Shown here: in pieces, positions 1-15,461 of the stretch
Numbering within the stretch: the first letter of the stretch is position 1
How the letters are laid out: the number at the start of each line of letters is the position of its first letter
DNA from: Stigmatella ashevillena
GTDB taxonomy: Bacteria > Myxococcota > Myxococcia > Myxococcales > Myxococcaceae
DNA: 64,000 nt
Direction of reading: 5' to 3'
NCBI RefSeq assembly: GCF_028368975.1
Contig: NZ_JAQNDM010000002.1
Location: forward strand, 8,240,425-8,304,424
Position numbers and translations under genes: made by a program
Notes under the pieces: model-generated
What the model was told of the DNA's origin: nothing
Seen by the model: only the letters and a program-made list of their open reading frames with translations
Database searches by the model: none

Positions 1-2116
1 AGCCGTCTGGGGAGAAGGCAGCGCTTCGGACAGAGCCTGTATGCCCCTTGAGGGAGGCCAGGGAACGGTCGGAGTGGCTGTTCCAGAGGCGGGCGATGCC
101 GTCCTTGCTCGCGGTGACGATGCGTGAGCCGTCCCGGGAGAAGGCCGCGCCCCAGACAGCGTCCCCATGATCGAAGGTTGCCAGGAGTTGGCCGGAATGC
201 CCGTCCCAGAGGATGGCCGTCGAGTCTTCGCTGGCGGTGACGAGGAGCGAGCCGTCCGGGGAGAAGCTCGCGCTCTGGACACTGTTCTGATGCCCCTGGA
301 GGGTAGCCAGGCGTTCGCCGGAGTGGCTGTTCCAGAGGATGGCGGTCTTGTCGTCACTGGCGGTGACGATGCGTGAGCCGTCCGGCGAGAAGGCCGCGCT
401 CCGGACAGGGTCCTGATGTCCTTGAAGGGTGGCCAGGAGCTGGCCGGAGCGGCCGTCCCAGAGGATGGCGGTCTTGTCGTCACTGGCGGTGACGATGCGT
501 GAGCCGTCCGGCGAGAAGGCCGCACTCCGGACGCGGTTGTCGTGCTTCTTCAGGACACTCGAATACTTGAGGTCCGAGACGCCCATCATGATGCCGAGGA
601 ATGTCTCCGGGGGCGGGGGGACCTGGAGTTGCTCGGCAATGACGAGCGTCGAGAGGAGCGCTTCGATCGATTCTGCCCCGGAGCCTCTCTGCTTGCCGAG
701 GGCCGCGGCGAGCTGCGCGGTTTCGTGCATCAGCGATGTGGAGGCCTGCTGGGCCTCTTGGTTCTTCAGGAGCAGCACCACCACCATCCCCATGAGCACC
801 ACCAGGGCGGAGGCCAGGACCACGAGAATCGCCCGGCGCGTGCGGTCTTGAGCGGCGATGTCCTGAGAGGCGTCGAGGAACTCCCGCTCCTCTTGCGTCA
901 GATCCTCCCGGTGGCGGGCCCATTGCCGCGCCTGTTCCAGCACCTCTCCGCGCAGCAGCAGGTCCTGGGTCCGGTCCTGCTCCAGCCACTGCTCGAGGGG
1001 CTTGGTGAGGAGCCGGTCTGCCTCCCGGGCTCGCACCCACGCTTCGTCGAACACGGTGGCGAAGATCTTGTTGCGGACCCGCAGCCACCGGCCCGAGGCG
1101 TCCCGCCGCTCCGTCACCATGCCCGTGAGCCGGAACTCCTGCTGAATGGGATCGCTGCCCACCGCCGCGATGGACGCGCCCGCCAGCAGCCGCCGGTAGA
1201 GGCTCAGCATCCTCGGAATCTGCTCGTTTTGTTGACCGCGCGAGAAGCGATCCTCGGCGTAGCGCAGGTTGGGTTCCTCCTGTCGGCCGTTCTCCAGGAA
1301 GAGCTTCCGCACCCATCCCCCCACTCGTGCTGGAGGCGAGAGGGCCTGAAGGGGGACCTCGCCCTCGCGGACCAGGGCATGGGCGATCCGGAGGGTCATA
1401 TAAGGATGGCCATCGGTCCACGTCAGGATGGCATCGAGCAACGCCCGGGGGGCGTGCCCCAATCCTTCCAGTCCCGGGAGCAGCCGCTCTGCCTCGGCCG
1501 GGATGAAGTCCTCCAGGGGGATGGAGAGGCCGATGTTGAAGGGCGTTCGCGTCTCGTCCTTCATCAGCTCCCGGGGCGCTGCGACGCCCAGCAGGCAGAA
1601 GCTGAGCCGCTTGAAGTCCGGATCCTCCTCTCGCTTCTCGTGCATGGCCCGGAGCGAGGCGAAGAAATCGTCGGCCACGGTGGGCACGGACAGGATCGTG
1701 TCGATCTCGTCGATGAAGATGACCACGGGCCCCGCCACTTCCTGGAGCACCGTGTTCCGGCAGAAGTGTGTCCAGCGGGCGGGCAGCGACTCCTTCGCAT
1801 GGGCTTCCCAGAAGGACTCGACGTGCTCTTCGAGACCGAGTTCCTCCGCCACGCACGTCACCAAGCTGTAGAACCACGTCTCGGCCGTGACGTTGCCGCC
1901 GATTTCGTTGAGGTCCACGGCGGCATAGCGGATTCCCGCCCGGCGCAGCTTCTCGCGCGTCTTCAAGGCCAGGCTCGTCTTGCCGATCTGCCGGGGCGCG
2001 AGCACGTAACAGAACTCGCCCCGTCGCAGCGCCTCGGGGAGTTCCTGGTCCGCGGGCCGCTCGACGTAGAGCAGCCCCTCCCGGACGGCCCCGCCCGCCT
2101 GGAAGAGGGTGTTCAC
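1..2116 (-). CDS. AAA-like ATPase / transmembrane / WD40-repeat protein (partial, runs off left edge)
   Basis: About 705 residues are visible and the C-terminus lies outside the window. The start is a GTG at 2116 overlapping the upstream gene's stop as GTGA, which implies translational coupling. From the N-terminus: an AAA-like NTPase with a P-loop at residues 41-48 (PRQIGKTS) and a Walker B strand ending FIDEID; a helical linker; one transmembrane helix (around LVVLASALVVLMGMVVVLLL); then WD40 blades of about 42 residues, each with an AFSPDGSRIVTASDD core and a closing LW. The build (ATPase, membrane anchor, beta-propeller sensor) is that of STAND-like signalling or conflict proteins; the family role is known, the function here is inferred. 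The blades are nearly identical to each other at the DNA level. Confidence 0.88.
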   Translation of the reverse strand, partial: MNTLFQAGGAVREGLLYVERPADQELPEALRRGEFCYVLAPRQIGKTSLALKTREKLRRAGIRYAAVDLNEIGGNVTAETWFYSLVTCVAEELGLEEHVESFWEAHAKESLPARWTHFCRNTVLQEVAGPVVIFIDEIDTILSVPTVADDFFASLRAMHEKREEDPDFKRLSFCLLGVAAPRELMKDETRTPFNIGLSIPLEDFIPAEAERLLPGLEGLGHAPRALLDAILTWTDGHPYMTLRIAHALVREGEVPLQALSPPARVGGWVRKLFLENGRQEEPNLRYAEDRFSRGQQNEQIPRMLSLYRRLLAGASIAAVGSDPIQQEFRLTGMVTERRDASGRWLRVRNKIFATVFDEAWVRAREADRLLTKPLEQWLEQDRTQDLLLRGEVLEQARQWARHREDLTQEEREFLDASQDIAAQDRTRRAILVVLASALVVLMGMVVVLLLKNQEAQQASTSLMHETAQLAAALGKQRGSGAESIEALLSTLVIAEQLQVPPPPETFLGIMMGVSDLKYSSVLKKHDNRVRSAAFSPDGSRIVTASDDKTAILWDGRSGQLLATLQGHQDPVRSAAFSPDGSRIVTASDDKTAILWNSHSGERLATLQGHQNSVQSASFSPDGSLLVTASEDSTAILWDGHSGQLLATFDHGDAVWGAAFSRDGSRIVTASKDGIARLWNSHSDRSLASLKGHTGSVRSAAFSPDG

Positions 2117-3786
2117 CGGGGGGCCACCCGGGAGAGCACCCGTGTGAAGTACTCCCGGTGCAGGGTGCAGGTGGGCTCCAGCCTGTTCGCCGCAGTCCGG
2201 CGGACCAGCCAAGCCTTCTTCAGGAGATCTTCCTGGTCGGGGGGCACCGCCGTGGTCGGCTCCCGCAGCACCGCCCAGAGCAGCTCTGCGAGGGATTCCC
2301 GCTCCACGAAGTGCCGCAGGGAGTCGAGGTGGGCCGCAAAGACCTCCGATTCTGGCTCCAGCGCCAGTGCCCGGGTGCCGCCCACCGCCAACGTCGCATC
2401 GAACAGCACCCGTCGGACAAGGTAGGGGTGTCCTCCGGTCAGCGCGTGAAGTCCCTCCAACTCCCGGGGGCTCGCCTGGAGCCCATGCCTCTGCGACAGC
2501 TGGGCGATGTCCTCGGCGGAGAAGGGAGGCAGCGCGACGGGCTCGGCGATGTTGAAGGGGGACTGCTGGGGGTTGTCGATCATCCGTGAGGGGGTGGTCG
2601 AGATGGCCATCAGCAAGCGCAGTTGGTCCCAGGGGGGCGTGGACGCCTTTTGCATCCACGCTCGCAGGCCTCCGAAGAAGTCGCTGGCGTAGGGGCGTCC
2701 CAGGATGGCGTCGGTGGCGTCGATGGCCAGCAGTGTGGGTTGGTCACCGCCGAGGGCGTGGCGTTTCACCATCGCCCCGAGTCGGATCATCGGGCTGGCC
2801 CGGCCCTTGCCGTTTTCGTAGGTGCCGAACCAGGACTCATGGCCCCCCAGTTCGTCCACGAGCGTGTAAGCGATTTGGCGGGTCAGATCCTCCAGGGACG
2901 CCAGCTCGGCGAACTCCAGCAGGTTGATGCGGGCCACGGCGCCCTGGGGCCACTTCTTCTGCCAAGCGTTCTCCAGGTGCTTGAGCAGCCAGCTCTTGCC
3001 GGAGAGCCGGGGGCCGTAGAGGACCGCGGGGGAGCCGGGGCCCTCCAGGTAGGCCAGGGCGCGCCGCTCGCAGTCAGGCCGGGAAACGTACCACCGCGAT
3101 TGGTAGGCCGCGCCGGGAGGTTGGGCGGGGCCGGGGGCGGAAGCGGGTGGCGCATCCGCGAGCAGGAAGCGCAGCACCTCGCGTCCGGGCGTGGCGAACA
3201 CCAGCCCCATCTCCGCCGAGGCGCGATCGGCATCACTGTCGATGAGCACCCGCCTCAGGTGGCCGACCACCGCGCCGTTCACGATGACGGGGCTGCCCGA
3301 ATACCCATGCATCCGGGCGCCGGCCCCGGCTGCCACCATGTCGGAGTACAGGACGATGGCGGAGGCGCCGCGGTTGTCCCGTCCCACGGGATCATGAACG
3401 CGGCCGCTCAGCAGCAAGTGATGGCCCCCCATCTGCTGGGGAAATCCCACCAACTCGAAGGGCTGGTGGCGTTCGACGTCCCCCACCAGCCGCAAGGGGG
3501 CCACGGAAGGCACGTTCGGGCCGAGTTTCAGCAGGGCCACATCCGTGCTGGCATCCACGCGTTCAACGGATGCCGCGTGGATCGAGCCATCGAAGAAGGA
3601 GAGGGAGACGTGGCCGTCTTTCTTCACCCTCCGGACGACGTGCTCACAGGTGACGGCTTTGTCCGGCGCGATGAGGTAGCCCGTCCCCACGGTGCCATCT
3701 TCACAGGTGACCTTCACGCAGGCCGAGCGGAGGGACGCGAGGTCATCTCCCGGCACTGAGGGGACAGCACCCTGCTGGTTCGCCAT
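2113..3786 (-). CDS. Trypsin-like serine protease fused to an AAA-like ATPase
   Basis: 557 residues with no signal peptide, so probably cytoplasmic. The N-terminal ~200 residues are a trypsin/HtrA-type peptidase with an apparently intact triad: His49 (CEHVV), Asp82 (STDVALLKLG) and Ser163 in GYSGSP. After a Pro/Ala linker comes an AAA-like NTPase with a P-loop at about 258-265 (GPRLSGKS) and Walker B LLAIDATDAI, followed by a helical winged-helix-like tail. It is the first gene of a two-gene unit and overlaps the ATPase/WD40 gene by four bases. Trypsin-like domains coupled to NTPases and WD40 partners are known from predicted bacterial immunity and programmed-death systems. Substrate and trigger cannot be told from the sequence. 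Confidence 0.9.
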   Translation of the reverse strand: MANQQGAVPSVPGDDLASLRSACVKVTCEDGTVGTGYLIAPDKAVTCEHVVRRVKKDGHVSLSFFDGSIHAASVERVDASTDVALLKLGPNVPSVAPLRLVGDVERHQPFELVGFPQQMGGHHLLLSGRVHDPVGRDNRGASAIVLYSDMVAAGAGARMHGYSGSPVIVNGAVVGHLRRVLIDSDADRASAEMGLVFATPGREVLRFLLADAPPASAPGPAQPPGAAYQSRWYVSRPDCERRALAYLEGPGSPAVLYGPRLSGKSWLLKHLENAWQKKWPQGAVARINLLEFAELASLEDLTRQIAYTLVDELGGHESWFGTYENGKGRASPMIRLGAMVKRHALGGDQPTLLAIDATDAILGRPYASDFFGGLRAWMQKASTPPWDQLRLLMAISTTPSRMIDNPQQSPFNIAEPVALPPFSAEDIAQLSQRHGLQASPRELEGLHALTGGHPYLVRRVLFDATLAVGGTRALALEPESEVFAAHLDSLRHFVERESLAELLWAVLREPTTAVPPDQEDLLKKAWLVRRTAANRLEPTCTLHREYFTRVLSRVAPR

Positions 3787-3793
3787 GCCCGGA

Positions 3794-5002
3794 TCATGGC
3801 ACGGGAAGCCCCGGCGGGTCAGGCGGGAGACGTGGAAGGGGAGGCGGGCAGGCGGCGGAGATCATCCGGGTGCGCAGCCAGCGCCGGGCAGGCTCCTCCA
3901 GCCAGAGGAAGACCCCCACCGAGGCAAGGACCGAGAGGGCCACGTAGATGGCGAAGAAGAGCCCGGGAGAGGAACCCGCGAGCCTCGGGCCCCACCGGTG
4001 GTCCGCCAGCCGGAGGTAGAAGTAGAGGGGGTTGTGGAGGATGTAGAGCCCGTAGCTGGCCTCGCCCCATCGCACGGCCCAGGAGCGTCCCAGCAGCCAG
4101 GCCAGCGAGCCCCCTCCATAGGCCAGCCCCCAGATGAGCAGCGAGAAGGTGGGCATCAGCGCCAGGTCCCTGAATGCCAGAGCGGCTCCGGACATCGGCG
4201 CGGCGAAGAGCACCAGAGTGGCTCCCGCCGCCACCCAGGTCTGCGCGGGGGCCGCGAGCCCTGCTCCCTGGCCTTGCTTCACGCGCAGGCAGAAGAGTCG
4301 GCCCAGCACGATGCCGAGGAGGAACTGCGGCAGCCGGAGGAGGGGGTTGTACGCCGCCACCTTGAGCCACGTGTCCGGGCCAAAAGGCGGCGCCGGGCTC
4401 GTGGCGCGCCACCCCTCCACCCAGAGCCACAGCAGGACGATGGTCGCCGTGCCACCCAGCGTGGCCGCCGCGGCGCGCCACAGGCCGCGGGGCCTGGCGT
4501 GGACCAGGGGCAGGCAGAGCACGGGGAAGAGCAGGTAGAAGAAGGCTTCAACGGACAGGGACCAGCCCGGGCAATTCCAGACGCAGGCCACCCCAGGCCC
4601 CCAGGCTTGTGTGAGGGTGATGGCAGACAGGCCCACCGTGAAGAGTTCCCAGATCGCCTCGGCTTGCAGACCCCCCATGCTGCGGCGCACGCCGTCGATC
4701 CACGGAGGGGCCATCAACACCAGCCCCAGCGCGTAGACCGGGTACACGCGGGCGAAGCGGGCGGCCCAGAAGGCGCAGCGCTCCACCTTGGGCGCTTCCT
4801 GGGCGCCCAGATGGCTGTACGCCAGGATGAACCCAGACAGGATGAAGAACAGCGTGACGCTGTGCGAGCCCGCGCTCAGCAGGCGATCGAGCCACGCGGG
4901 GAGCCCCTCCCGGGGGGCGTAGTGAAAGGCCACCACGTGCAGGGCCGCGAGGAAGCGGACTCCCGTGAGGGCTCGCAAGGAGGGGCGCTGAGGAGAAGGC
5001 AT
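3794..5002 (-). CDS. Acyltransferase family 3 membrane protein (OafA/YrhL-like)
   Basis: 402 residues from the ATG at 5002; an upstream in-frame start would add a 34-residue extension without family features. The protein is polytopic with about ten hydrophobic segments. The N-terminus has the family signature: LRALTGVRFLAALHVVAFHY, with the conserved Arg and the His believed to act in transfer, followed by SVTLFFILSGFIL. Members transfer acyl groups to sugars of O-antigen, exopolysaccharide or peptidoglycan at the cytoplasmic membrane; which glycan is modified here is unknown. It stands alone, with only 7 bases between its stop and the start of the protease/ATPase gene, and is divergent from the 5158 lipoprotein gene. 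Confidence 0.88.
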   Translation of the reverse strand: MPSPQRPSLRALTGVRFLAALHVVAFHYAPREGLPAWLDRLLSAGSHSVTLFFILSGFILAYSHLGAQEAPKVERCAFWAARFARVYPVYALGLVLMAPPWIDGVRRSMGGLQAEAIWELFTVGLSAITLTQAWGPGVACVWNCPGWSLSVEAFFYLLFPVLCLPLVHARPRGLWRAAAATLGGTATIVLLWLWVEGWRATSPAPPFGPDTWLKVAAYNPLLRLPQFLLGIVLGRLFCLRVKQGQGAGLAAPAQTWVAAGATLVLFAAPMSGAALAFRDLALMPTFSLLIWGLAYGGGSLAWLLGRSWAVRWGEASYGLYILHNPLYFYLRLADHRWGPRLAGSSPGLFFAIYVALSVLASVGVFLWLEEPARRWLRTRMISAACPPPLPRLPPDPPGLPVP

Positions 5003-5157
5003 GCGCTTCCGCGCACTAATCGGACCTGGGGTCAAAGGCCAGCGGCCTCCCGTTCGAGTGTGGGCAGGGTGGAAAAATGGCGGGTGGCTCCAAGGGGAGG
5101 CCACGTTCGAGGCGGCTTGCGTCCCATGCGTGGCCTGGGTTCTACAATGGGCGCTTG

Positions 5158-6759
5158 ATGCGCACCCTTTCGATGTGGGCCCGGCTCCTGGCGCCGCTGC
5201 TGTTGCTCACCTGCTCCGACGCAGGGCTGTACGCCTTGGACGGGCGCGGGCCCAGCGGCAAGGACCGGGCGGACTTCTCCGGGCAGACCTGTATCCCGCT
5301 GGCCAGCGGCGATGCCTTTCCGGTGAAGATTGTCTTCGCTGTCCAGGGCGGGGAGGGCGTTCCCTCGGAGGTGGTGGGCTACATCACCGACGCGCTCAAC
5401 ACGGTCAGCAGCCGCTTCTCCGGCTCCTTCGCCCGGTTCGCCCTGGTGGGCTTCCACACCGTGGCCACCGGCTTCCAGGGAAGCTTCGCGGACGCGGCCA
5501 CCTTCCAGACCGCGCTGCCACGCTACGCCAGCTACCAGGAGACGGGGCCGGTGAGCCTGCGCGCCCCCCTGCGGCTGGCCAAGAGCCTGCTGTCCGGGGA
5601 CATGCAGACCTCCTGCCGCGGCGAGGTGGCTCGCACCCGCTACATCGTCGTCCTGGTGGTGGCCAGCGAGGACCTGAGCTGCCAGAACCCCGCCTTCAAC
5701 GTGGGCATCGACTCGCGCTGCGCGCAGCTGAAGCCCAACAACGAGGCGTGCAATCAGTGCGAGCTGACGGCCGTCACCGGTGAGCTCAAGGCGCTGGCCC
5801 AGCAGTTCGGCGCGGGCGAGGTGGTGGTCCAGCCCATCTACGTGCGCCCTGGGGCTGCGGACCCCGCCACCCGGGACCAGATTGCCGCCATCGCCAACGC
5901 GGGGGGTACCGAGGCCATTGAGACCGAGCCGGTGGCACTGCGCGATGTGATTGGCACCCTCAACTATTCCTCCCTCCAGACATCGCTCGTCCTCAAGCGC
6001 TTCCTGGCCTTCAACCGCAACGTCCAGGTGCGTGCCGGCGAGGTGCTCACCGACAGCGACGGCGACGGCGTGGCGGACCAGGACGAGCTGGCGCTGGGGC
6101 TGGACCCCACGAATCCGGACTCCGATGGGGATGGCCTCATGGATGGAATCGAGCTGCGCATGGGCCTCAATCCCCAGCCGGGCAACGTGGACATCATCCC
6201 CGGCTGCAGCGTCGCGCTGGACGATGATGGCGACCGGCTCAACACCTGCGAGGAGCGTGTGCTGGGCACCGATCCATGCATGGGCGACAGCGATGGGGAT
6301 GGGCTGCCGGACCTGGTGGAGGCGCTCTCGCGCACCAACCCCCTCGTCCCCGAGGACCTGCTGGACACCGACCGGGACGGCATTCCCAACATCCAGGAGG
6401 TGGAGGCCCGGGGAGATCCGCTCAGCGCCGACATCGCCTTCCACACCGAGCGCGGTTACGGCTATTCGCTCGAGCCCTCGGAGCCCACCGTGGATGGCCG
6501 GGCGTGCTACCAGGTGCGCGCCGAGAACATCACCGTGGTGCCCACCCTGCAGCGTCCCCACCCGTTCATCCCCGGGCGCTCCATCGCCGCGGGCACCAAC
6601 GACATCTACCTCTACCTCCAGGTGGGCCGGGACAATGATCCGCGGGGCGCGGGAATCGGTGCCCTCTTCATCCAGTCCGTCGGTTACTCCGAGAAGGAGG
6701 GGAGGACGCCGGTGCTCAATCCTCCCTTCATTCCGGAGGACTTCGTCCTGGGGAACTGA
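5158..6759 (+). CDS. Lipoprotein with degenerate vWA-like domain and TSP3 calcium repeats (paralogue A)
   Basis: 533 residues. The ATG at 5158 is chosen because it begins a lipoprotein signal (MRTLSMWARLLAPLLLLTC, lipid Cys19); an upstream in-frame start would bury it. The order is: a linker ending in a conserved Cys; a vWA-like domain (VKIVFAVQGGEG...); TSP3-type Asp/Gly repeats (DSDGDGVAD, DSDGDGLMD, DTDRDGIPN) that should bind Ca2+; and a C-terminal ~100-residue domain containing GRACYQVRAENI and NDIYLYLQVG. The same order recurs at 8328 and 10295, so these are paralogues. Here the metal-binding MIDAS sequence DxSxS is replaced by AVQGGEG, so this copy has probably lost divalent-metal ligand binding in the vWA domain. 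Likely anchored on the outer membrane. Confidence 0.85.
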   Translation: MRTLSMWARLLAPLLLLTCSDAGLYALDGRGPSGKDRADFSGQTCIPLASGDAFPVKIVFAVQGGEGVPSEVVGYITDALNTVSSRFSGSFARFALVGFHTVATGFQGSFADAATFQTALPRYASYQETGPVSLRAPLRLAKSLLSGDMQTSCRGEVARTRYIVVLVVASEDLSCQNPAFNVGIDSRCAQLKPNNEACNQCELTAVTGELKALAQQFGAGEVVVQPIYVRPGAADPATRDQIAAIANAGGTEAIETEPVALRDVIGTLNYSSLQTSLVLKRFLAFNRNVQVRAGEVLTDSDGDGVADQDELALGLDPTNPDSDGDGLMDGIELRMGLNPQPGNVDIIPGCSVALDDDGDRLNTCEERVLGTDPCMGDSDGDGLPDLVEALSRTNPLVPEDLLDTDRDGIPNIQEVEARGDPLSADIAFHTERGYGYSLEPSEPTVDGRACYQVRAENITVVPTLQRPHPFIPGRSIAAGTNDIYLYLQVGRDNDPRGAGIGALFIQSVGYSEKEGRTPVLNPPFIPEDFVLGN

Positions 6760-6760
6760 A

Positions 6761-6810
6761 CCCCATCAGTGGGGTGTGTACCCCCCACAGGCGCTGGGGG
6801 TTTTCCCCCA
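6761..6810. terminator. Two adjacent GC-rich hairpins, possible terminator
   Basis: Right after the paralogue A stop, CCCCA-TCAG-TGGGG (6761-6774) and TGGGGG-TTTT-CCCCCA (6795-6810) can each form a stem-loop. The block CCCCCACAGGCG occurs twice. There is no U-tract, so termination is plausible but not certain. If it works, it separates paralogue A from the 6927 gene. Confidence 0.4.
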
Positions 6811-6926
6811 CAGGCGTTGAGCGGTGAATGGGCGCTGTTTCCCAAACCCCTGAAATTCCTACTGCCTGGCCAGGGAGAGCGAGCGGATCGGCTCTTGCTA
6901 TGAGCGCTCTTTGAAAAGGAGTCACC

Positions 6927-8288
6927 ATGACATTCAGCCGCATTGCTTCGGTCCTGACCCTCGGGACCTTCTTCTTCCTGGCCCCCAGTGCGCGGGCCCA
7001 GACGAACTCCGTGGACAACCCGGAGTGTCTTGGCAGCCGGTGTGGCAAGCCCCAGGAGGTCGGCGGCGGCGGCGGCTGTGGCGGCGGCTGCTCGGTATGG
7101 GTGGCCTACACGGACGATGGCGTGACGCTGTCCTACACCGACGACGCCGATGGGGACGGCAAGGCGGATGACCGCGACAACTGCCCCTTCGCCTCCAACC
7201 GCGAGCAGACGGACACGGACGGCGATGGCGTGGGCGATGCGTGCGACAACTGCTCGGGGCTCGCCAACTTCCAGCAGCGCGACGCGGACGGCGATGGCCA
7301 GGGCGACGACTGTGACGCCGATGCGGACGGGGACAACGTGGCCAACGCGCAGGACAACTGCCCGCTGGTGCCCAACAAGGACCAGAGCGATCTGGACCAG
7401 GACACGGGCCGCACGGACATTGATGCGGCGAACCGGGGCGGGGATGTGTGCGACCGGGACGATGACAACGACGGCATCGCCGATGGCGAGGACAACTGCC
7501 CCCGCGTCGCCAACCCGGACCAGAAGATGCCCGCGGACGCCACCCAGTGCCGCGTGGACACGGACGGGGACAACATCTCCGACAACGGCGACAACTGCCC
7601 GGGTCTGGCCAACCCGAACCAGAAGGACACGGACCGGGATGGCCAAGGGGACGTGTGCGACGCAGACGTCGACGATGACGGCGTGCTGAACAAGGGCGCG
7701 GACGGCAAGCTCCTGGACAACTGCCCCGAGGTGGCCAACCGCGATCAGGCGGACGACGACGGCGACGGCGTGGGGGATGTGTGCGACACGCGCTACTGCG
7801 TCGTGGTGGACAAGAGCAACCCGGATGACTGCTTGGATCCGCGTGGCCCCTTCACCGTCTCTGGCGGTGGCCGGCTCAGCCTGAAGAAGGGTGAGAACCT
7901 GCGGCTGCCCCTGTTCGCCAACCGCAATGGGGCCTCCATCGAGTACACTTGGACGGTGCAGCAGCGCCCCTCGGGCTCCAAGGCCGTCATTGACAACCCG
8001 ACGGGCGCGGTGACCAACAGCCGCCACTGGCAGTATGCCTACGTCGATGGCCACCTCCCCAGCTTCACCGCGGACGCGGACGGAGAGTATGACATCCAGG
8101 TGCAGGCCCGGCTGGCCTTCGCGGACCGGGCCTACCCGGATCAGCGCACCTCCATCTCCAGCCTCAAGCTGTCGGTGGGCGACGGCAACGGCAGCAGCTG
8201 CGCGGCCCTTCCGGGCTCCGCGGGAGGCGTGGCGCTGGGCGCCACAGTGCTCGGCCTCTTGCTGCGCCGCCGCCGCCGTGAGGAGTAG
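6927..8288 (+). CDS. Secreted TSP3-repeat protein with C-terminal MYXO-CTERM-like anchor
   Basis: 453 residues; AAGGAG lies five bases before the ATG. A Sec signal peptide ends in PSARA-QT. Residues ~70-290 hold about six thrombospondin type 3 repeats of the DNCPxxxNxxQxDxDxDGxGDxCD form, a very acidic, Cys-paired, Ca2+-binding rod. An Ig-like/beta-sandwich segment follows (ENLRLPLFANRNGASIEYTW). The C-terminus is CAALPGSAGG, a hydrophobic stretch, then RRRRREE, the tripartite arrangement of MYXO-CTERM sorting tails (small motif, membrane segment, Arg cluster). It lies between lipoprotein paralogues A and B that also carry TSP3 repeats, so a joint surface structure is likely. The exact function is not known. 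Confidence 0.87.
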   Translation: MTFSRIASVLTLGTFFFLAPSARAQTNSVDNPECLGSRCGKPQEVGGGGGCGGGCSVWVAYTDDGVTLSYTDDADGDGKADDRDNCPFASNREQTDTDGDGVGDACDNCSGLANFQQRDADGDGQGDDCDADADGDNVANAQDNCPLVPNKDQSDLDQDTGRTDIDAANRGGDVCDRDDDNDGIADGEDNCPRVANPDQKMPADATQCRVDTDGDNISDNGDNCPGLANPNQKDTDRDGQGDVCDADVDDDGVLNKGADGKLLDNCPEVANRDQADDDGDGVGDVCDTRYCVVVDKSNPDDCLDPRGPFTVSGGGRLSLKKGENLRLPLFANRNGASIEYTWTVQQRPSGSKAVIDNPTGAVTNSRHWQYAYVDGHLPSFTADADGEYDIQVQARLAFADRAYPDQRTSISSLKLSVGDGNGSSCAALPGSAGGVALGATVLGLLLRRRRREE

Positions 8289-8327
8289 GATTCCACGCTG
8301 AACCTGATTGGCCGGAGACCCGTTTCC

Positions 8328-10295
8328 ATGCACCCCCATCCTCGGATGCTGATGGCCGCGGGCCTTCTGGCCTCTCTCCTGGCGTCCTGCACTGACACCC
8401 TCGTCGAGCCGCTCGTCCAGGAGCAGTCCCTGCTGGACGACCGGCTCACGCTCACGGGCCGCGTCTGCACGGCACCCGCCAACCCCAGCGGGTTTCCGGT
8501 GAAGGTGGTGCTCGTCATCGACCAGTCCGGCAGCATGTGTGTGTCGGATCCGCCGGGCTCTCAGGGCGTGGAGGGCTTCTGTGAGCAGGTGGATGACATC
8601 CTCCTGCCGCCGGGCGTCCTCGAGCCCGCGCGTGTCCGGGCGCTGAAGCGGCTGGTGAACCAGTTCCGCCAGCAGCCCAACGTGCAGATCTCCATCGTGC
8701 CGTTCGAGACCAACGTGAAGAACGTCTGGCCTCCGGCCACCACCGGCAACCGTTTCGCGCGGCCGGATGCCTCGCTGGACACCTACATTCGGGGCCTCCA
8801 GAGCCAGCTCGGCAAGGGCACCGACTACCAGGGCGCTGTCGGCTACGCCTACAGCCTCATCGCCAGCGACATCAACGCCGTGTCGGCGAACAACCCCGAG
8901 GTGCTGCCGCGCACCCGCTACGTGGTGGTGTTCCTCACGGATGGCACGCCGTACCCGCGCTGCTCGGCCAATGACAACCTCTCCGCCTATGCCACGCCGG
9001 ACTCGCCGGACCTGACGTGGGCGGACTCCTCGAGCGCGGGGGACTTCTGCAACCTGCTGGATCCGGACTCTCCCGACAGCATCGAGGAGTTCCAACCCGG
9101 CACGGACCGCAACCAGAACTACCAGCTCTTCAGCTACGTGCGGCGGTTGATGGAGCTGAAGGACCAGTACAACGTGGGCGACATCCGCATGCACACCGTG
9201 CTGCTCTTCAACCAGCAGGCGGTGCAGCTCTGCGGCCCCATCTGCCAGGACATCTACGGCACGTACCCCGGCACACCGCCCGCGCAGTATCCGCAGGCGG
9301 CCAAGAAGGTGGCCGCGTGGCTGCTGGCGCGCTTCGCGGAGATTGGCAACGGCGTGTACCAGGAGTTCAACGACACGGGGGAGATCAACAACATGGGCCT
9401 GGGGGCGCTGGACTATTCATCCTTCGCGTCCCGCAACGTGCTCAAGACGCTGATGGTGAGATCGCTCAGCTCCATCCCCGGTGAGGCGGGGCGAGAGCTG
9501 GACACGGACGGGGATGGGCTGGGGGACCTGGTGGACAACACCTTCACTCTGCAGACCAATGCCTACGTCCCGGACAGCGATGGGGATTGCTTGGACGACG
9601 CCTTCGAAGCGCGCCGGCAGGACCAAGGCTTCAAGCCCGGCAACGATCTGGACGCGCGGGGGTGCGACCCCACCTCTCCCCTGACGCGGGGTTGTGTCTG
9701 CCGCGACACGGACGGCGATGGCCTGTCCCAGTTCGCCGAGGCCTACCTGAAGACACGCGATGGCATCGTGGACAGCGACGGAGACGGCGTGCCCGATGGC
9801 ATCGAGTCGCGCTATGGGTTGGATCCGCTCTCCGCGAACGTGTCCGGCCTCGACACGGATGGAGATGGAATCCCCGACGGGGATGAGCTGCGCTCGGAGT
9901 CGGACCCGACGCGGCGGGACCGGGCCTTCTACGAGCGCTTCGGCTACCAGTACGGGGTGAAGATCGCCGAGAAGCGCGACAACGGCAGCACCTGCTACGA
10001 CTTCACCGTGTCCAACTTGCAGATGGTGACGCCGCCCAACCGCTCCGGGGTGCAGCAGGGCTACAACCTCTTCAAGGTGTGGTTCGCCGAGGCCCCGGAG
10101 AGCGGTGTGGCCACGGACTACGGGGTGTGGCGCACGGCCTGTGCCTGGGCGCAGTATGCGCCGCCGGGCCTGCGCGTGCCGCTGGGGCCTTCGCTGGCGC
10201 TGGAGGACGGGAACTTCCGCAGGCCGCAGGACCTCGACGAGATGAGTGAATACATGCAGCGGTGTGTGGGAGACGGGCCCGGGGCGGCGCCGTGA
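8328..10295 (+). CDS. vWA + TSP3 lipoprotein (paralogue B, intact MIDAS)
   Basis: 655 residues. The signal peptide has a lipobox LLASC (Cys21), then GRVCTAP and a vWA domain starting VKVVLVIDQSGSMCVSD, so the DxSxS metal site is intact. The domain is about 350 residues long with insertions; VVVFLTDGTPYP supplies a further vWA strand and Asp. TSP3-like calcium repeats follow (DTDGDGLGD, DSDGDCLDD, DTDGDGLSQ, DSDGDGVPD, DTDGDGIPD), then the C-terminal domain shared with paralogues A and C (STCYDFTVSNLQMVTP). The stop shares one base with the next ATG (TGATG), so the two genes are probably co-translated. Likely a surface ligand-binding protein; the ligand is unknown. Confidence 0.87.
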   Translation: MHPHPRMLMAAGLLASLLASCTDTLVEPLVQEQSLLDDRLTLTGRVCTAPANPSGFPVKVVLVIDQSGSMCVSDPPGSQGVEGFCEQVDDILLPPGVLEPARVRALKRLVNQFRQQPNVQISIVPFETNVKNVWPPATTGNRFARPDASLDTYIRGLQSQLGKGTDYQGAVGYAYSLIASDINAVSANNPEVLPRTRYVVVFLTDGTPYPRCSANDNLSAYATPDSPDLTWADSSSAGDFCNLLDPDSPDSIEEFQPGTDRNQNYQLFSYVRRLMELKDQYNVGDIRMHTVLLFNQQAVQLCGPICQDIYGTYPGTPPAQYPQAAKKVAAWLLARFAEIGNGVYQEFNDTGEINNMGLGALDYSSFASRNVLKTLMVRSLSSIPGEAGRELDTDGDGLGDLVDNTFTLQTNAYVPDSDGDCLDDAFEARRQDQGFKPGNDLDARGCDPTSPLTRGCVCRDTDGDGLSQFAEAYLKTRDGIVDSDGDGVPDGIESRYGLDPLSANVSGLDTDGDGIPDGDELRSESDPTRRDRAFYERFGYQYGVKIAEKRDNGSTCYDFTVSNLQMVTPPNRSGVQQGYNLFKVWFAEAPESGVATDYGVWRTACAWAQYAPPGLRVPLGPSLALEDGNFRRPQDLDEMSEYMQRCVGDGPGAAP

Positions 10296-12079
10296 TGAGA
10301 AGGGCGGGCTTGGCGGTGGTGTTGGTGGGACTGGGGCTGGCGGTGGTGGCCGCCTGCACCGATGCCTACCTCTATGACGAGCGTCGGGATGAGCAGCTTC
10401 CGGTGGACCGGGCCGTGGCCTTCGAGGGCCGCTTCTGCACGGTCGGCACCAACGAGGTGGTGCGCCCCATCAAGATCATCGTCGCCATGGATGCCAGTCA
10501 GTCCATGAACGTGAGCGATCCGGATGGCGCGCGCGCCACGGCGCTCATCTCTCTGCTGGACAGCCTTCCGGATGATCCCGAGGTCTACGTCGCGGTAGTG
10601 CTCTTCGCGGGCAGCACCACGGCCTACCTCACCCAATCCGGCACGCCTCCGGTGGACGGCTTCGTACAGGTGGCCAGCCTCACCGCCACCCAGAAGCTCA
10701 ACATGCGCAGGACGCTGCTCAACTTCCAGAACCCGGACAACTCTCCGAACCGGGACTCGACGGACTTCGTCAAGCCCCTGGCGGACATCTACTCGCTCAT
10801 CAACACGGACATCGCCCTGAGCCGCACCACCCCGGGAGGCTCTCAGTCCCTGGCCCAGGCGCGCTACTCGCTCATCTTCCTGTCGGATGGCCGACCCAGC
10901 AACGACCAGGACGACGAGCTGCTCCAGGGCGATGCGGTGGTGCGCATCCGCCAGCTGAAGGACCTGGTGGAGGACGTCCGCGTCAACACGGTGCACGTCT
11001 TCAACCCCACGCAACCAGTCAGTTCGGTGTGTGACTTGACGGGGGATGGCGGCTGCCCGCTGCTGCTCATCAACCAGAACGCGGACCGCCTGGAGAAGAT
11101 GGCGGCGCTGGGGGGAGGCAACTTCCGCGACTTCCGCAACAACGAGCCCATCAACTTCCTGAACTTCCAGTTCGGTCAGGCCCGGCGCGCCTTTCAAGTG
11201 AAGGAGCTGATCGCCTCCAACTTCAACGCTCCGCCGGGCAGTCCCCTGGGTCTGGCCGATACGGACGGGGATGGGCTCACCGATGCGGAAGAGGCGGAGG
11301 TGGGCACCAGTCCCACGCGCGTGGACACGGATGGGGATGGCTTCAGCGATGGGGTGGAGGTGCGCTTCGCCCGCCAGGGGGTGGACTTCAATCCCATCCA
11401 GGTGGCGTATCCGGACGGAGGCGGCCTGGATCCCGGCTGCCCACCCCCCCTGCGGGCTTTGGACTCGGACTGTGATGGGCTCCTGGACTGCGACGAGCAG
11501 TTCATCGGCACCAACGCGAACGTGGTGGACAGTGACCGGGATGGCGTTCCGGACGGCATCGAGTGGCGCGGAGGGACCCAGGGCGCCAGCAACGACCTGG
11601 ACGAGGACCCGGACAACGATGGGCTCTCCAGCCGGGCGGAACTGCGGCTGCACACGAGCCCGCTGGAGATGGACACCGCGCACCTGTCCGTGGATGGCTA
11701 CCGCTACGAGATGAAAGCGGAGGGGCCGCCCGATGAGCTGGGGCGCCAGTGCTACACCTTCCGGGTGGACAACGTGCTGCTGGCCCCGACCCTGGCGGAG
11801 TACAGCGACGGCGGGGTGGACGGCGGGGGAGAACTGCTCCCGGATGGGGGCCTGCCGGTGGTGCGCGGCGCGGGCTACAACAGCCTCTACCTCTCCGTGG
11901 CGATGGTTCCCGCGGATGACCCCACCGCGCGCACCCTCACCCGCGCCTTCCGTTATGACTTCGCGCGCTATCCCATCGGGGGCATCAAATCCCCCGTGGA
12001 TGGTGTCATCCGTGTCAACCCAGAAAACTTCGTCGAGGGGTGCCCGGGCCGTCCAGAGTCCACCCCTTCGTCGCCCTGA
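10295..12079 (+). CDS. vWA + TSP3 lipoprotein (paralogue C, MIDAS DASQS)
   Basis: 594 residues from the ATG at 10295, which touches the stop of paralogue B; a GTG three bases upstream is an alternative. The lipobox is VVAAC (Cys21), followed by CTDAYLYDE and then GRFCTVG, which align with the start of the other two copies. The vWA domain begins IKIIVAMDASQSMNVSD (MIDAS intact) and includes YSLIFLSDGRPSNDQ. Calcium-type repeats (DTDGDGLTD, DTDGDGFSD, DSDCDGLLD, DSDRDGVPD) precede the shared C-terminal domain (RQCYTFRVDNVLLAPT, GYNSLYLSVAM). It is the third member of the cluster and ends nine bases before the next lipoprotein gene. Confidence 0.87.
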   Translation: MRRAGLAVVLVGLGLAVVAACTDAYLYDERRDEQLPVDRAVAFEGRFCTVGTNEVVRPIKIIVAMDASQSMNVSDPDGARATALISLLDSLPDDPEVYVAVVLFAGSTTAYLTQSGTPPVDGFVQVASLTATQKLNMRRTLLNFQNPDNSPNRDSTDFVKPLADIYSLINTDIALSRTTPGGSQSLAQARYSLIFLSDGRPSNDQDDELLQGDAVVRIRQLKDLVEDVRVNTVHVFNPTQPVSSVCDLTGDGGCPLLLINQNADRLEKMAALGGGNFRDFRNNEPINFLNFQFGQARRAFQVKELIASNFNAPPGSPLGLADTDGDGLTDAEEAEVGTSPTRVDTDGDGFSDGVEVRFARQGVDFNPIQVAYPDGGGLDPGCPPPLRALDSDCDGLLDCDEQFIGTNANVVDSDRDGVPDGIEWRGGTQGASNDLDEDPDNDGLSSRAELRLHTSPLEMDTAHLSVDGYRYEMKAEGPPDELGRQCYTFRVDNVLLAPTLAEYSDGGVDGGGELLPDGGLPVVRGAGYNSLYLSVAMVPADDPTARTLTRAFRYDFARYPIGGIKSPVDGVIRVNPENFVEGCPGRPESTPSSP

Positions 12080-12088
12080 GCCCCCACC

Positions 12089-14434
12089 ATGACCCGTCTT
12101 CTCTGGCTGCTGCCGCTCGTGCTGCTCTCGCTGACTGCTTGCTCATCGGGGGGAGAAAACACCCCGGATGCGGGAGACCCCGCGCTCGCGGATGAGTGCA
12201 ACAGCCCAGAGGATGCCCTCAACAAGCCGCAGTGCGAGCTGTCCGTGGAAGGAGAGGGTCAGGTGCTGGAGGCCTACCTGTCCACCGCCGGCGATGAGGA
12301 CTGGTACAGCGTGCGCATCCCCGCGACGGCGGGACCTCGCACGCTGGTGCAGGTCACTGCGGGCTACGCGGTGCAGAGCACGGCGGTGAACCTCTCGGTG
12401 AACCTCCTGCGGGAGGATGGCGCGGCTTCCTTGATCAAGGGCGTGGACAAGCATGGCCAGGGAGCCCCTCGGCCGGTGGAGTTCATCGTTCCCTTCGGAG
12501 AGCCCAATGCGCGGCTCCTGATCTTGCTGAAGGATGAGCCCAATGTGGTCAACCGGCCCAACTTCGATGCGCGCTCTCCCTACTTCGTGCGGGTGAAGGT
12601 GCTGGAGAACCCGGACCTCTTCGAGCCCAACGACACGCCGGCGCAGGCCACGCCCCTCACCTTCGTGCCGGAGGCGGGCAAGGAGACCGGCCGGGCCGTG
12701 GGCTACCTGGGCACCAAGGGGGACGTGGACTATTTCTCCTTCACGGCCCCCGCCAAGAAGGTGCTCTACGTGCGGGTGTCCGCACCGGAGCTGACGCCGC
12801 CTCCCGCCTACCGTCTCTCCTATGAACTGGTACGGCCCAACGGCACGGCCGAGGCCCAGGATCAGGTACCCAACACCTCGATCGCCGCGGAGCTGGCGAC
12901 CGCGCGCCGGGTGAAGGACGCGGGCCAGTGGTTGGTGAAGGTGAAGGGCTACCAAGCCGTGACGGATCCGAACACGCCGCCCGGGGATGTGCGCCAGGCG
13001 TACACGGTGGAAGTCCAGTTGATGGACGAGGCGGATGCGCAGGACATCAACGGTGACAATGATCTCCGGGAGCGGGCCACGGTGAAGGCGTTCGGGCCGT
13101 ATTCCGGCTCGGCCCAGACGCTGTCCTTCGCGGGCCGTCTCGGCTCGGTCCCCGACGTGGACTGGTACGCGGTGGACGTGCCCGCTTACGTGAAGAGTGG
13201 CGTCCCCCAGCCTTCCCTGCTGCACTACCGCTTCACGCCGGGCTCTGGCGGAGGCCGCTTCACCCCCCTGCCGGGATTCCTCGACCGGCAGTTGCTCGTT
13301 TTCACCCAGGTGACCAAGGGGACGACCCTCGCGGACCAGCGCGTCGCCTGCGCCACGGACGTGACGGTGTGTCCCAAGGGGTATGCGGAGAAGGCCGAGG
13401 GGCAGGGGCTGGTGGAGGCCTACTGCGGAGCGGGCACCGCGGCGCTGTGCGTCCACTCGTCGCGCCAGGAGGATCCCCAGCGCTTCGCCACCCTGCGCAA
13501 CTTCGAGGGAGCCATTCCGGTGCCGCCCGGCACGCAGACGGTGCGGTACTTCTTCCTCGTCGAGGACGCCTCCAATGACTGGGCGGATGACCGGGACTAC
13601 ACCCTGTCGGTGACCTGGGTGGAGGACGCGGACGAGTCAGACCGTTACGCAGGCGGCAACCAGGAGCAGCCCACCGCCCTGACGCTGGCCAATGATCCCA
13701 CGGGCAATACGTTCCCCGCGCCTCCCGCTTCCGCCACGGTGATGAGCGGGGTGCTCTCGCATGGCTATGGCCGCCTCCAGCCGGGGGACCGGCTCACGGG
13801 CCGGGGGGCGCGCGGCCCTGGGGACTACGATGCGGTCCCCACGGACGTGGACAGCTACATCCTCACCATTCCAGGAGGGCAGGCGCAGCCCCAGGACCGC
13901 ACCTGGGAACTGCAGTGGACGGTGCAGAACCTGGCGGACGGTGGCATTCCGCCGCATGGGCTCGCGCTGGACCTGACCTTTTGCGATGGGGACCGCCTGG
14001 ACGGAGGGGCCTGCACGCCGGTGAGCCGGGGCAGCCGCAACTCCCCGCTGACGCTGGCCTACCGGGGGGACGCGCTGCGCGCCTGGCACTCCCCCAGCGG
14101 GAGCACCAGTGGCTTGCAGCCGCTCTACTCGAAGACGGTGTCGGGCAACGCCACGGTCTTCACCGTGTTGCCGTATGCGTGCTCCTGCCTGGAGCCGCGC
14201 TTCGTCCGGGGGGGCACCCTCCGCGTGGATGTCTCCGCCACCGAGCGGGAGACCTACGATCGGCTGAACTACTCGGTGCGCACCGCTTACACCGATTACC
14301 CGAAGAGCTACGCCGTGGATGGCGGCACGAGCCTCTGCCCGGCGCCGCAGCAGGACGGGGGCACGCCCCTTCCGGATGGCGGCACCACGCCCATCACCTG
14401 GACGCGGGGCTGTCAGTTCACCCTTCAGCCTTGA
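12089..14434 (+). CDS. Large lipoprotein with repeated pre-peptidase-like beta-sandwich domains
   Basis: 781 residues with a lipoprotein signal (LLSLTAC, Cys18). At least three beta-sandwich modules resemble bacterial pre-peptidase C-terminal (PPC) domains, recognised by DEDWYSVRIPA, GDVDYFSFTAPA and VPDVDWYAVDVPA at about residues 70, 210 and 350. A Cys-containing C-terminal half follows, with further DVDSYILTIPG-like strands and a short Asp/Gly/Pro-rich tail. No catalytic domain is recognisable, so it is more likely structural or adhesive than a protease. It starts nine bases after paralogue C and probably ends the operon. The call as a surface protein is firm; its partner role with the vWA/TSP3 proteins is inferred from position. 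Confidence 0.83.
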   Translation: MTRLLWLLPLVLLSLTACSSGGENTPDAGDPALADECNSPEDALNKPQCELSVEGEGQVLEAYLSTAGDEDWYSVRIPATAGPRTLVQVTAGYAVQSTAVNLSVNLLREDGAASLIKGVDKHGQGAPRPVEFIVPFGEPNARLLILLKDEPNVVNRPNFDARSPYFVRVKVLENPDLFEPNDTPAQATPLTFVPEAGKETGRAVGYLGTKGDVDYFSFTAPAKKVLYVRVSAPELTPPPAYRLSYELVRPNGTAEAQDQVPNTSIAAELATARRVKDAGQWLVKVKGYQAVTDPNTPPGDVRQAYTVEVQLMDEADAQDINGDNDLRERATVKAFGPYSGSAQTLSFAGRLGSVPDVDWYAVDVPAYVKSGVPQPSLLHYRFTPGSGGGRFTPLPGFLDRQLLVFTQVTKGTTLADQRVACATDVTVCPKGYAEKAEGQGLVEAYCGAGTAALCVHSSRQEDPQRFATLRNFEGAIPVPPGTQTVRYFFLVEDASNDWADDRDYTLSVTWVEDADESDRYAGGNQEQPTALTLANDPTGNTFPAPPASATVMSGVLSHGYGRLQPGDRLTGRGARGPGDYDAVPTDVDSYILTIPGGQAQPQDRTWELQWTVQNLADGGIPPHGLALDLTFCDGDRLDGGACTPVSRGSRNSPLTLAYRGDALRAWHSPSGSTSGLQPLYSKTVSGNATVFTVLPYACSCLEPRFVRGGTLRVDVSATERETYDRLNYSVRTAYTDYPKSYAVDGGTSLCPAPQQDGGTPLPDGGTTPITWTRGCQFTLQP

Positions 14435-14479: not shown

Positions 14480-14932
14480 CTACGGAGGCGGGGTGACGCC
14501 CACGCCAGCAAGGCCGATCTGCTTCTCGGGGGCGTTGGCGGCGTTGGACTTGAGGACGAAGGAGCCCTCGTAGGTCTTGGCCTGCTTGGGGGTGAACTCC
14601 GCCTCGATGAGGGCTGTCTTCCGGCTTTCGATCGTCAGCGTCCCGCCCTCGGCGAGCGCGTCGGGGAGCCGGAGGACGAACTCCGAGGGGGCGTTCTTGA
14701 CGACGGCGGTGATGACCAGGGGCTGGTCCCCCCGGTTCTCGATGTAGAGCGAGTTGCGGGAGGCCGCACCCACGTACGTGCCCCGGTCGAACTCCGTGTC
14801 AAAGGCAAGCCGCTCACGGTCCACGAGCAGGAAGGGCCCCTTCTCCAGGGTGTAGGACTCTTCGTCCCCCCCGCAGGCGGCCAGGGCCAGGGCAATGAGG
14901 GGGAGCCACGGGAAGGGCAGGCGCATGTTCAT
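14480..14932 (-). CDS. Small lipoprotein with Ig-like (ASH/DUF1573-type) domain
   Basis: 150 residues. The start has GAGGAG three bases upstream, and the signal ends in a lipobox (IALALAAC, Cys20). The mature part is one predicted beta-sandwich with NSLYIENRGDQPLVIT, a strand pattern typical of ASH/abnormal-spindle-like or choice-of-anchor domains that mediate protein contacts. It is divergent from the 14958 lipoprotein gene with only 25-43 bases between starts, so the two promoters must overlap or lie inside the coding regions. Function unknown. Confidence 0.8.
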   Translation of the reverse strand: MNMRLPFPWLPLIALALAACGGDEESYTLEKGPFLLVDRERLAFDTEFDRGTYVGAASRNSLYIENRGDQPLVITAVVKNAPSEFVLRLPDALAEGGTLTIESRKTALIEAEFTPKQAKTYEGSFVLKSNAANAPEKQIGLAGVGVTPPP

Positions 14933-14957
14933 TCACTCCTCGGATATGGTTCAGACA

Positions 14958-15461
14958 ATGGAGAGGTTTGTAACAGTGTTCCGTGGGCGTCCCCAAGCGG
15001 TTGCCTTCATGGTGTTGGTGTGGGGGCTGGGGTGTGGCGGCTCCCGCTCGGACTTCATTGGAGGCCGCGCGAAGGATGTGTGCGACGCCCAGTGGCCGGT
15101 GTGCAGCCGGATGGCGGGCTGCATCCTGGGCGAGGAGAGCTACATGGAGGGGCGCTTCCCGGGACGGGCACAGATCATCGTGCAGATTCCGGAGCCCGCC
15201 ACGGTGCGGCTGCGGTTCTTCCTGGAGGACGTGGTGGCGGCGGGGCAGGAGACGGTGGTGACGTTCCACGAGGAAGGGTGCCGGGAGCGCATCCGCCAGG
15301 TGGTGAGTGGGCGCACCGCCCTGGAGTCGGCAGAACGGCTCGGGGAGTTCAGCCGCGAGGCGGAGCTGACCGGGGTGGGGGACCACATGGTGGAGTTCGA
15401 GTCGGACCTGCAAGCCCGCTATGTGCTGAAGGTGGAAGTGGAGCCGCTGCGCAACCGCTGA
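14958..15461 (+). CDS. Small lipoprotein of unknown function
   Basis: 167 residues from the ATG at 14958. A GTG at 14976 has the better ribosome-binding sequence (GAGAGG, nine bases upstream) and would give a shorter, still complete signal. The hydrophobic stretch AVAFMVLVWGLGC is a lipobox. The mature protein is small with four Cys residues (VCDAQWPVC, GCILGEES), suggesting disulfide bonds, followed by beta-strands (AQIIVQIPEPATVRLRFFLE). I recognise no family. It forms a divergent pair with the Ig-like lipoprotein. Confidence 0.75.
   Translation: MERFVTVFRGRPQAVAFMVLVWGLGCGGSRSDFIGGRAKDVCDAQWPVCSRMAGCILGEESYMEGRFPGRAQIIVQIPEPATVRLRFFLEDVVAAGQETVVTFHEEGCRERIRQVVSGRTALESAERLGEFSREAELTGVGDHMVEFESDLQARYVLKVEVEPLRNR

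Follow-up and report, generated by a model that had tools for sequence, protein, structure and literature searches.

The mts locus (myxobacterial thrombospondin-like gene cluster) has been in print since 2007 and, as later papers cite it, is tied to the cohesion of cells, to S motility and to development (Zhang et al. 2007, J Bacteriol 189:7937, as cited in PMC11980579); a part in building the cell-surface matrix has also been suggested for it (PMC6593220). No further characterisation of Mts proteins was recognised among the matches listed from the open-licence PubMed Central literature. The locus compared here lies in a window of 64,000 nucleotides from Stigmatella ashevillena (C2:8240425-8304424 of a 10.95-Mb, two-contig genome), where five consecutive plus-strand genes occupy positions 5158-14434, exactly the coordinates given by an earlier sequence-only reading of this DNA (hereafter the original prediction). 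The founding mts work reportedly concerned Myxococcus fulvus/M. xanthus. Other described systems share parts of this architecture: CglD and CglB, which are likewise lipoproteins with vWA and/or TSP3-like repeats; TraA/TraB, with which a predicted surface protein of MYXO-CTERM type would be held in common; and the collagen-binding domains of clostridial ColG/ColH, which resemble part of gene 5 in fold. The features of the block are the following.

5158-6759, plus strand: gene 1 ("MtsB"), a lipoprotein with a degenerate vWA-like region without the metal ion-dependent adhesion site (MIDAS), three TSP3_bac stretches, and a C-terminal region common to genes 3 and 4
6884-6900, plus strand: CGGATCGNYYCTTGCTA, a 17-bp element 5' of mtsC, candidate promoter of genes 2-5
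6927-8288, plus strand: gene 2, mtsC, with a signal peptide, six TSP3 stretches, and a C-terminal Cys, hydrophobic stretch and RRRR (MYXO-CTERM type)
8328-10295, plus strand: gene 3, mtsD, a lipoprotein with a vWA domain and intact DxSxS MIDAS, TSP3_bac repeats, and a C-terminal beta region
10295-12079, plus strand: gene 4 ("MtsE"), a lipoprotein paralogue of mtsD with DxSxS intact
12089-14434, plus strand: gene 5 ("F"), a lipoprotein whose model is a tandem array of beta sandwiches, one or more of them of the PPC/collagen-binding-domain type

The labels MtsB, MtsE and F were assigned in this analysis from gene order alone. The start of gene 1 was set at the signal-peptide Met at 5158 (the listed open reading frame, ORF, begins at 5077). 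Gene 4 is listed as 10262-12079 but starts more plausibly at the ATG at 10295, which makes it overlap the stop of gene 3 by one base. Junctions are short or overlapping from gene 2 onward, and third-position GC is 0.87-0.90 in all five genes, a coding-like composition.

The block is the mts locus, a system already known, because genes 2 and 3 lie far above the curated cut-offs for MtsC and MtsD. Gene 2 matches NCBIfam NF047638 (MtsC) at 1e-177 with 591.4 bits against a cut-off of 350, over model positions 7-428 of 428, and gene 3 matches NF047639 (MtsD) at E 0 with 1351.5 bits against a cut-off of 800, over positions 2-651 of 651; both are curated equivalog models described as cell-cell cohesion proteins. 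The closest named relative of gene 3 is from Hyalangium versicolor (82% identity). Compared with the mts locus of Myxococcus, the genes are orthologous and their order matches that of the record M. xanthus AM003, with no difference in kind found; the upstream neighbour differs, being a haem-protein-like gene in Myxococcus and an acyltransferase gene (3794-5104, minus strand) in this genome. The suggestion in the original prediction that the complex was undescribed is therefore wrong, whereas its interpretation otherwise stands as regards anchor signals, repeats of the Ca2+-binding type and a direction towards adhesion or motility. The identification removes a false claim of novelty and links this DNA with a cohesion system that already has a name, and the role of the block in cohesion, S motility and development rests on the literature as cited. 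The additions of the present analysis are modest and mostly inferential: the wider distribution of the core, the separability of gene 5, the absence of a MIDAS from gene 1, and the conserved element before mtsC.

Gene content, orthology and order can be observed directly in related genomes. A search of GTDB contigs with gene 3 found 17 loci; L030, a weak match, was set aside. Among the 16 loci with a close MtsD relative, 13 carry all five genes in the same order and on the same strand, including L016 (record Myxococcus xanthus AM003). Of the rest, L023 has genes 1-4 and no gene 5 though its stretch continues for ~2.9 kb, L024 has genes 2-4 with part of gene 5 at a contig end and no gene 1 in ~2.3 kb upstream, and L025 is a 3.7-kb contig. 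MtsD was then found over cut-off in 80 of 195 genomes of the phylum, to which the count of partners was restricted. A partner was taken to be together with MtsD when it was on the same strand and the expected side, with no more than 6 kb between the two starts. Each gene was represented by a single row in each genome; further copies elsewhere than on the MtsD contig were left out, and a gene with only such a copy was counted as absent. Left-out copies included those of MtsC in, for example, G067-G069, G071, G105-G107, G149-G151 and G154, those of gene 5 in, for example, G067, G069, G102, G105 and G106, and also G141:C390 and the split pieces of G086. By this measure MtsD is accompanied by gene 1 in 59 genomes, MtsC in 71, gene 4 in 79 and gene 5 in 75. 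All four are present, in the same order, in 57 of the 80, so that conservation of the five genes as a block, which the original prediction had proposed to check, was found, and neither the compared loci nor the 80 genomes showed the genes to be unlinked elsewhere. In the remaining cases the partner gene is on another contig or does not appear in the rows used, among which no other same-contig arrangement occurred in the 80 genomes. Gaps between neighbours have medians of 197, 56, 23 and 26 bp, with a maximum of 2437 bp (mtsC-mtsD in G109).

As far as checked, many of the cases scored as other contig or absent have MtsD or MtsC near a contig end. Seven draft contigs (G068-G071, G149, G152, G153) start less than 500 bp ahead of mtsD. 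MtsC matches lie elsewhere in several of the genomes concerned, and our guess is that the TSP3 repeats may break assemblies at this point. Separately, a 969-kb contig filed as "Comamonas sp. KCTC 72670" (L014; BNCN01000002.1, 414199-436142) holds a full five-gene mts block with 92-95% identity to M. xanthus AM003 in genes 1, 3 and 4; this is probably a myxobacterial assembly that was mislabelled or contaminated.

Domain make-up and conserved metal-site residues were likewise read directly from the proteins. Genes 1, 3 and 4 are paralogues in pairwise protein comparison: genes 3 and 4 align at E 6.8e-36 (residues 8-566 and 19-507), genes 1 and 3 at E 1.8e-24 over most of gene 1, and genes 1 and 4 at E 8e-27 over the second half only. 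Pfam assigned TSP3_bac to gene 1, VWA_2 (3.7e-8) plus TSP3_bac to gene 3, and TSP3_bac (1e-13) to gene 4, for which vWA reached only 0.25. The DxSxS metal site is retained in 16 of 16 MtsD and 16 of 16 gene-4 sequences, and the predicted structure of MtsD has a clear vWA fold (Z ~16 over ~170-200 residues); no fold was assignable to its C-terminal region, where pLDDT (predicted local distance difference test) is partly low and structure matches are taken up by the vWA domain. For gene 1, where Pfam found no vWA, the vWA-like region is deduced from the alignment with its two paralogues; none of 15 gene-1 sequences has the MIDAS motif, and the protein partially matches the NCBIfam MtsD model (108.8 bits against a cut-off of 800). 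Motifs of the form DxDxDG number 4, 8, 4, 5 and 0 in genes 1 to 5, and the lipobox Cys is invariant at C19 of gene 1, C21 of gene 3, C21 of gene 4 and C18 of gene 5, as read from alignments because a simple lipobox pattern missed or misplaced the Cys in some rows. The prediction of three paralogous vWA/TSP3 lipoproteins holds, with the caveat that the vWA-like region of gene 1 is degenerate.

The same combination of domains raises the question of gliding. The TSP3 regions of genes 1, 3 and 4 weakly match the CglD model, and vWA lipoproteins act at gliding focal adhesions, as CglB does, which would suit an adhesion module for gliding (A-motility) of the CglB/CglD type. That reading is very improbable: CglD is a separate gene in this genome, over its cut-off (G000:C2:3722253-3725039, 853 bits with neighbours vs 400), and the role given for mts in the published passages is cohesion and S motility. 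Membership of the CglD family itself was rejected, as genes 1, 3 and 4 reach 29.7-39 bits against the NF033765 cut-off of 400, that is, less than 10% of it.

Gene 2 had been predicted to encode a TSP3 protein with a MYXO-CTERM-like anchor; its sequence has the TSP3 stretches and a tail that resembles such an anchor. Pfam places six TSP_3 stretches in it (1.4e-38), and the C-terminal tails of 16 MtsC sequences have a Cys, a hydrophobic stretch and an Arg cluster. Against the MYXO-CTERM model TIGR03382 the mtsC product of the window scores 12.6, below the cut-off of 15.85; at E <= 10, TIGR03901 matched 13 of the 16 MtsC sequences (best 1.6e-5) and TIGR03382 matched 12. The tail recalls TraA/TraB, and TraB is described with TSP3 repeats predicted to bind Ca2+ (PMC12045341). 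As a difference from TraA/TraB, no OmpA or beta-barrel family was found among the five mts proteins, TraA's own domains not being searched for.

Gene 5 passed no family cut-off by sequence (Pfam PPC at E 0.089 is below cut-off), and its PPC-like character, anticipated by the original prediction, emerges from the structure model, a row of beta sandwiches with pLDDT 72. Modelled residues 176-311 match the ColG collagen-binding domain 3b with Z 13.5 (108 aligned, 2.3 A, 18% identity); Foldseek TM-scores for gene 5 are low because the model is multi-domain. Residues D176, E179, N181, D182, D212 and D214 are the same in all 14 sequences, and they may match the Ca2+ ligands of the clostridial collagen-binding domains. 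Unlike ColG/ColH, gene 5 has its domains in tandem on a lipid anchor and no peptidase family was found in it; nor did the Pfam and NCBIfam searches find enzyme families among any of the five proteins, as had been predicted. Gene 5 is also the fastest evolving member of the block, its identity falling below the values for genes 1, 3 and 4 in all 91 pairs of 14 loci. Such divergence would be expected if the block served TraA-like kin recognition with gene 5 as its variable recognition part, an idea that is scarcely probable at all in view of how the divergence is distributed: mean identity is 0.50-0.75 per 40-residue block, with change spread throughout and no hypervariable domain between species, and gene 5 of the close relatives L016 and L021 is 97% identical.

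The likeness of gene 5 to matrix (collagen)-binding PPC-type domains bears on another reading, in which the five proteins, instead of acting as cell-cell receptors, are structural parts of an exopolysaccharide or slime matrix that they crosslink via Ca2+, and loss of cohesion is secondary. The gene directly upstream encodes an Acyl_transf_3 membrane acyltransferase, and membrane acyltransferases of this kind can act on surface polysaccharide. The published suggestion of a part in matrix building (PMC6593220) points the same way. This matrix role nevertheless appears unlikely, although it is one to be kept in mind: all five proteins carry an anchor signal (the invariant Cys of genes 1, 3, 4 and 5, and the MtsC tail), a better fit to cell-anchored proteins, and there is no polysaccharide enzyme among them.

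The reading preferred here, to which we give a probability of roughly 75%, is that the mts locus encodes a Ca2+-stiffened outer-membrane adhesion apparatus for cell-cell cohesion. Four lipoproteins and one MYXO-CTERM protein would be exported and anchored in the outer membrane, facing outward. MtsC would form a TSP3 rod stiffened by Ca2+, MtsD and gene 4 would each present a vWA head, its metal site intact, at the end of a TSP3 stalk, and gene 1 would be a structural partner without MIDAS, while gene 5, as a string of PPC-like beta sandwiches, would probably contact the matrix or the adjacent cell. Together the five proteins might keep adjacent cells attached when Ca2+ is present, a cohesion that S motility and fruiting-body development would need. 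It is by inference that each protein is placed at the surface, that the five are taken to depend on Ca2+ and to form a physical complex, and that binding partners are assigned. The cohesion buffer described for M. xanthus contains 1 mM CaCl2 and 1 mM MgCl2 (PMC3222651), a composition that is compatible with Ca2+ dependence and no proof of it.

Several observations weigh against this adhesion apparatus. The curated names cover genes 2 and 3, and genes 1, 4 and 5 are placed in mts by position. MtsC is above cut-off in 104 of the 195 phylum genomes, often in several copies, and because it is so common the MtsC model alone is no proof of an mts locus. The mean pLDDT of the MtsD model is 56, with the TSP3 and C-terminal regions at low confidence. 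Gene 5 is separable from the rest of the block. Finally, within the family of the window, genes 1-4 had no match at the cut-offs applied, with the best first-look candidates scored, in any of the four genomes of genus g7 or in four of the six of genus g3, all 98-100% complete; the block thus seems dispensable in some relatives, and these apparent losses, which take in all four g7 genomes, suggest that some close relatives do without mts.

The separation of gene 5 runs both ways, since three genomes (G061, G062, G064) keep it without a match for genes 1-4, and L023, as described, has genes 1-4 without it. In the three genomes gene 5 is open and matches at E 5e-261 to 2e-276. By the Nei-Gojobori method (NG86), the ratio of nonsynonymous to synonymous substitution rates (dN/dS) is 0.47-0.56 among these copies and 0.67-0.74 between each of them and the full-block copy in G063, values to be read with the caution that NG86 dS is unreliable at such GC; the ratios and the intact reading frames weakly suggest that selection maintains gene-5 copies without genes 1-4. 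In G065, which has no matches for genes 1-4, gene 5 is fragmented. Because gene 5 or its remnants in G062 and G065 adjoin a gene of the same cluster as that bordering gene 1 in the full-block G063, an AAA_21-type ATPase, the pattern fits a history in which genes 1-4 were lost in place and gene 5 later decayed in one lineage. At the G065 locus itself (L081; G065:C1:610218-626805), the fragments, at ~8001-9014, adjoin a relative of the ATPase that borders the intact block in L084, and have the look of a decaying relic. G092 and G060 have only a distant gene-5 relative, and the other three genomes of g7 have none at E <= 1e-10. These distant relatives were considered as decaying copies and rejected as such, being only ~37% identical and without the N-terminal ~185 residues; in G092 the single reported stop is at the very end of the match, and the ORF reaches model position 791 of 793.

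Part of the block extends well beyond the family of the window. Within that family an MtsD-type match at E <= 1e-10 was obtained in 81 of 96 genomes, and at the same threshold weaker MtsD-type genes occur in 34 genomes outside it, one of them over cut-off. Thirty of these 34 were examined as loci with short flanks, ending at ~1.5 kb or at contig ends. Counted by eye, at least 15 of the 30 loci have an MtsC-type ORF immediately upstream on the same strand, 12 of these loci being outside the class, and at least 27, not including L071-L073, have a second vWA/TSP3-type ORF in tandem on the same strand. Gene 1, at E <= 1e-60, is present in 79 of the 195 genomes, all in the family or order of the window, with weaker gene-1-like best matches further out in L071 and L072. 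Matches resembling gene 5 stand near the core in a few distant genomes (G002, G016, G018 and G161; E 1.7e-11 to 5.7e-16). Because C-, D- and E-type genes adjoin one another outside the family and the class, the C-D-E core looks older than the five-gene form, judging from presence and order rather than from a tree. The occurrence of the vWA/TSP3 core well beyond the order suggests that part of the cohesion machinery may predate the multicellular life cycle. One could go further and see in mts an ancestral apparatus of the phylum, with a core predating fruiting bodies, a MIDAS-dead gene 1 added in the order of the window, and a gene 5 with a function of its own that outlives the rest. This proposal is offered tentatively and we regard it as doubtful; were it true, the core would serve a general Ca2+-dependent surface task, such as aggregation or prey contact, reused by social species for multicellularity.

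The gap between genes 1 and 2 contains the 17-bp element CGGATCGNYYCTTGCTA, 26 bp before the mtsC start codon. Its fixed positions are invariant in 12 of 12 aligned sequences (the window included) and it is present in further loci; in the distant L022-L024, inspected by eye, GG-N10-GC is retained while the surroundings change. At no more than one mismatch it has a single site in the whole genome. From its position and conservation CGGATCGNYYCTTGCTA is a candidate promoter of genes 2-5. The GG-N10-GC spacing is what we take to be that of a -24/-12 (sigma-54-type) promoter. Scanning the window with the sigma-54 consensus at up to 3 mismatches found 90 matches where chance alone would give 103.6, and because such matches are no commoner than chance the sigma factor for the element is not established.

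Around the block, positions 2113-3786 (minus strand) encode a 557-aa Trypsin_2 plus AAA_35 protein that weakly matches the Avs1b defence protease (36.8 of 1500 bits) and has no relative among the loci compared. The Myxococcus loci (L016:4229-6667 and L027:18-2228) have a gene with two CxxCH motifs directly upstream of gene 1, with cytochrome c and beta-propeller matches, all below cut-off; it has no relative in the first 24 kb of the window, and in Hyalangium versicolor it is ~4.5 kb away. Downstream of the block, the following genes are found.

14480-14932, minus strand: small lipoprotein with an Ig-like domain (Cep192_D4 and HYDIN Ig-like just below cut-off), related ORF in 13 of 17 loci
14895-15461, plus strand: small lipoprotein, unassigned by Pfam at E <= 0.01, with a related ORF in 14 of 17 loci

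These two oppositely oriented small lipoprotein-like genes, which together span 14480-15461, could belong to the mts system.

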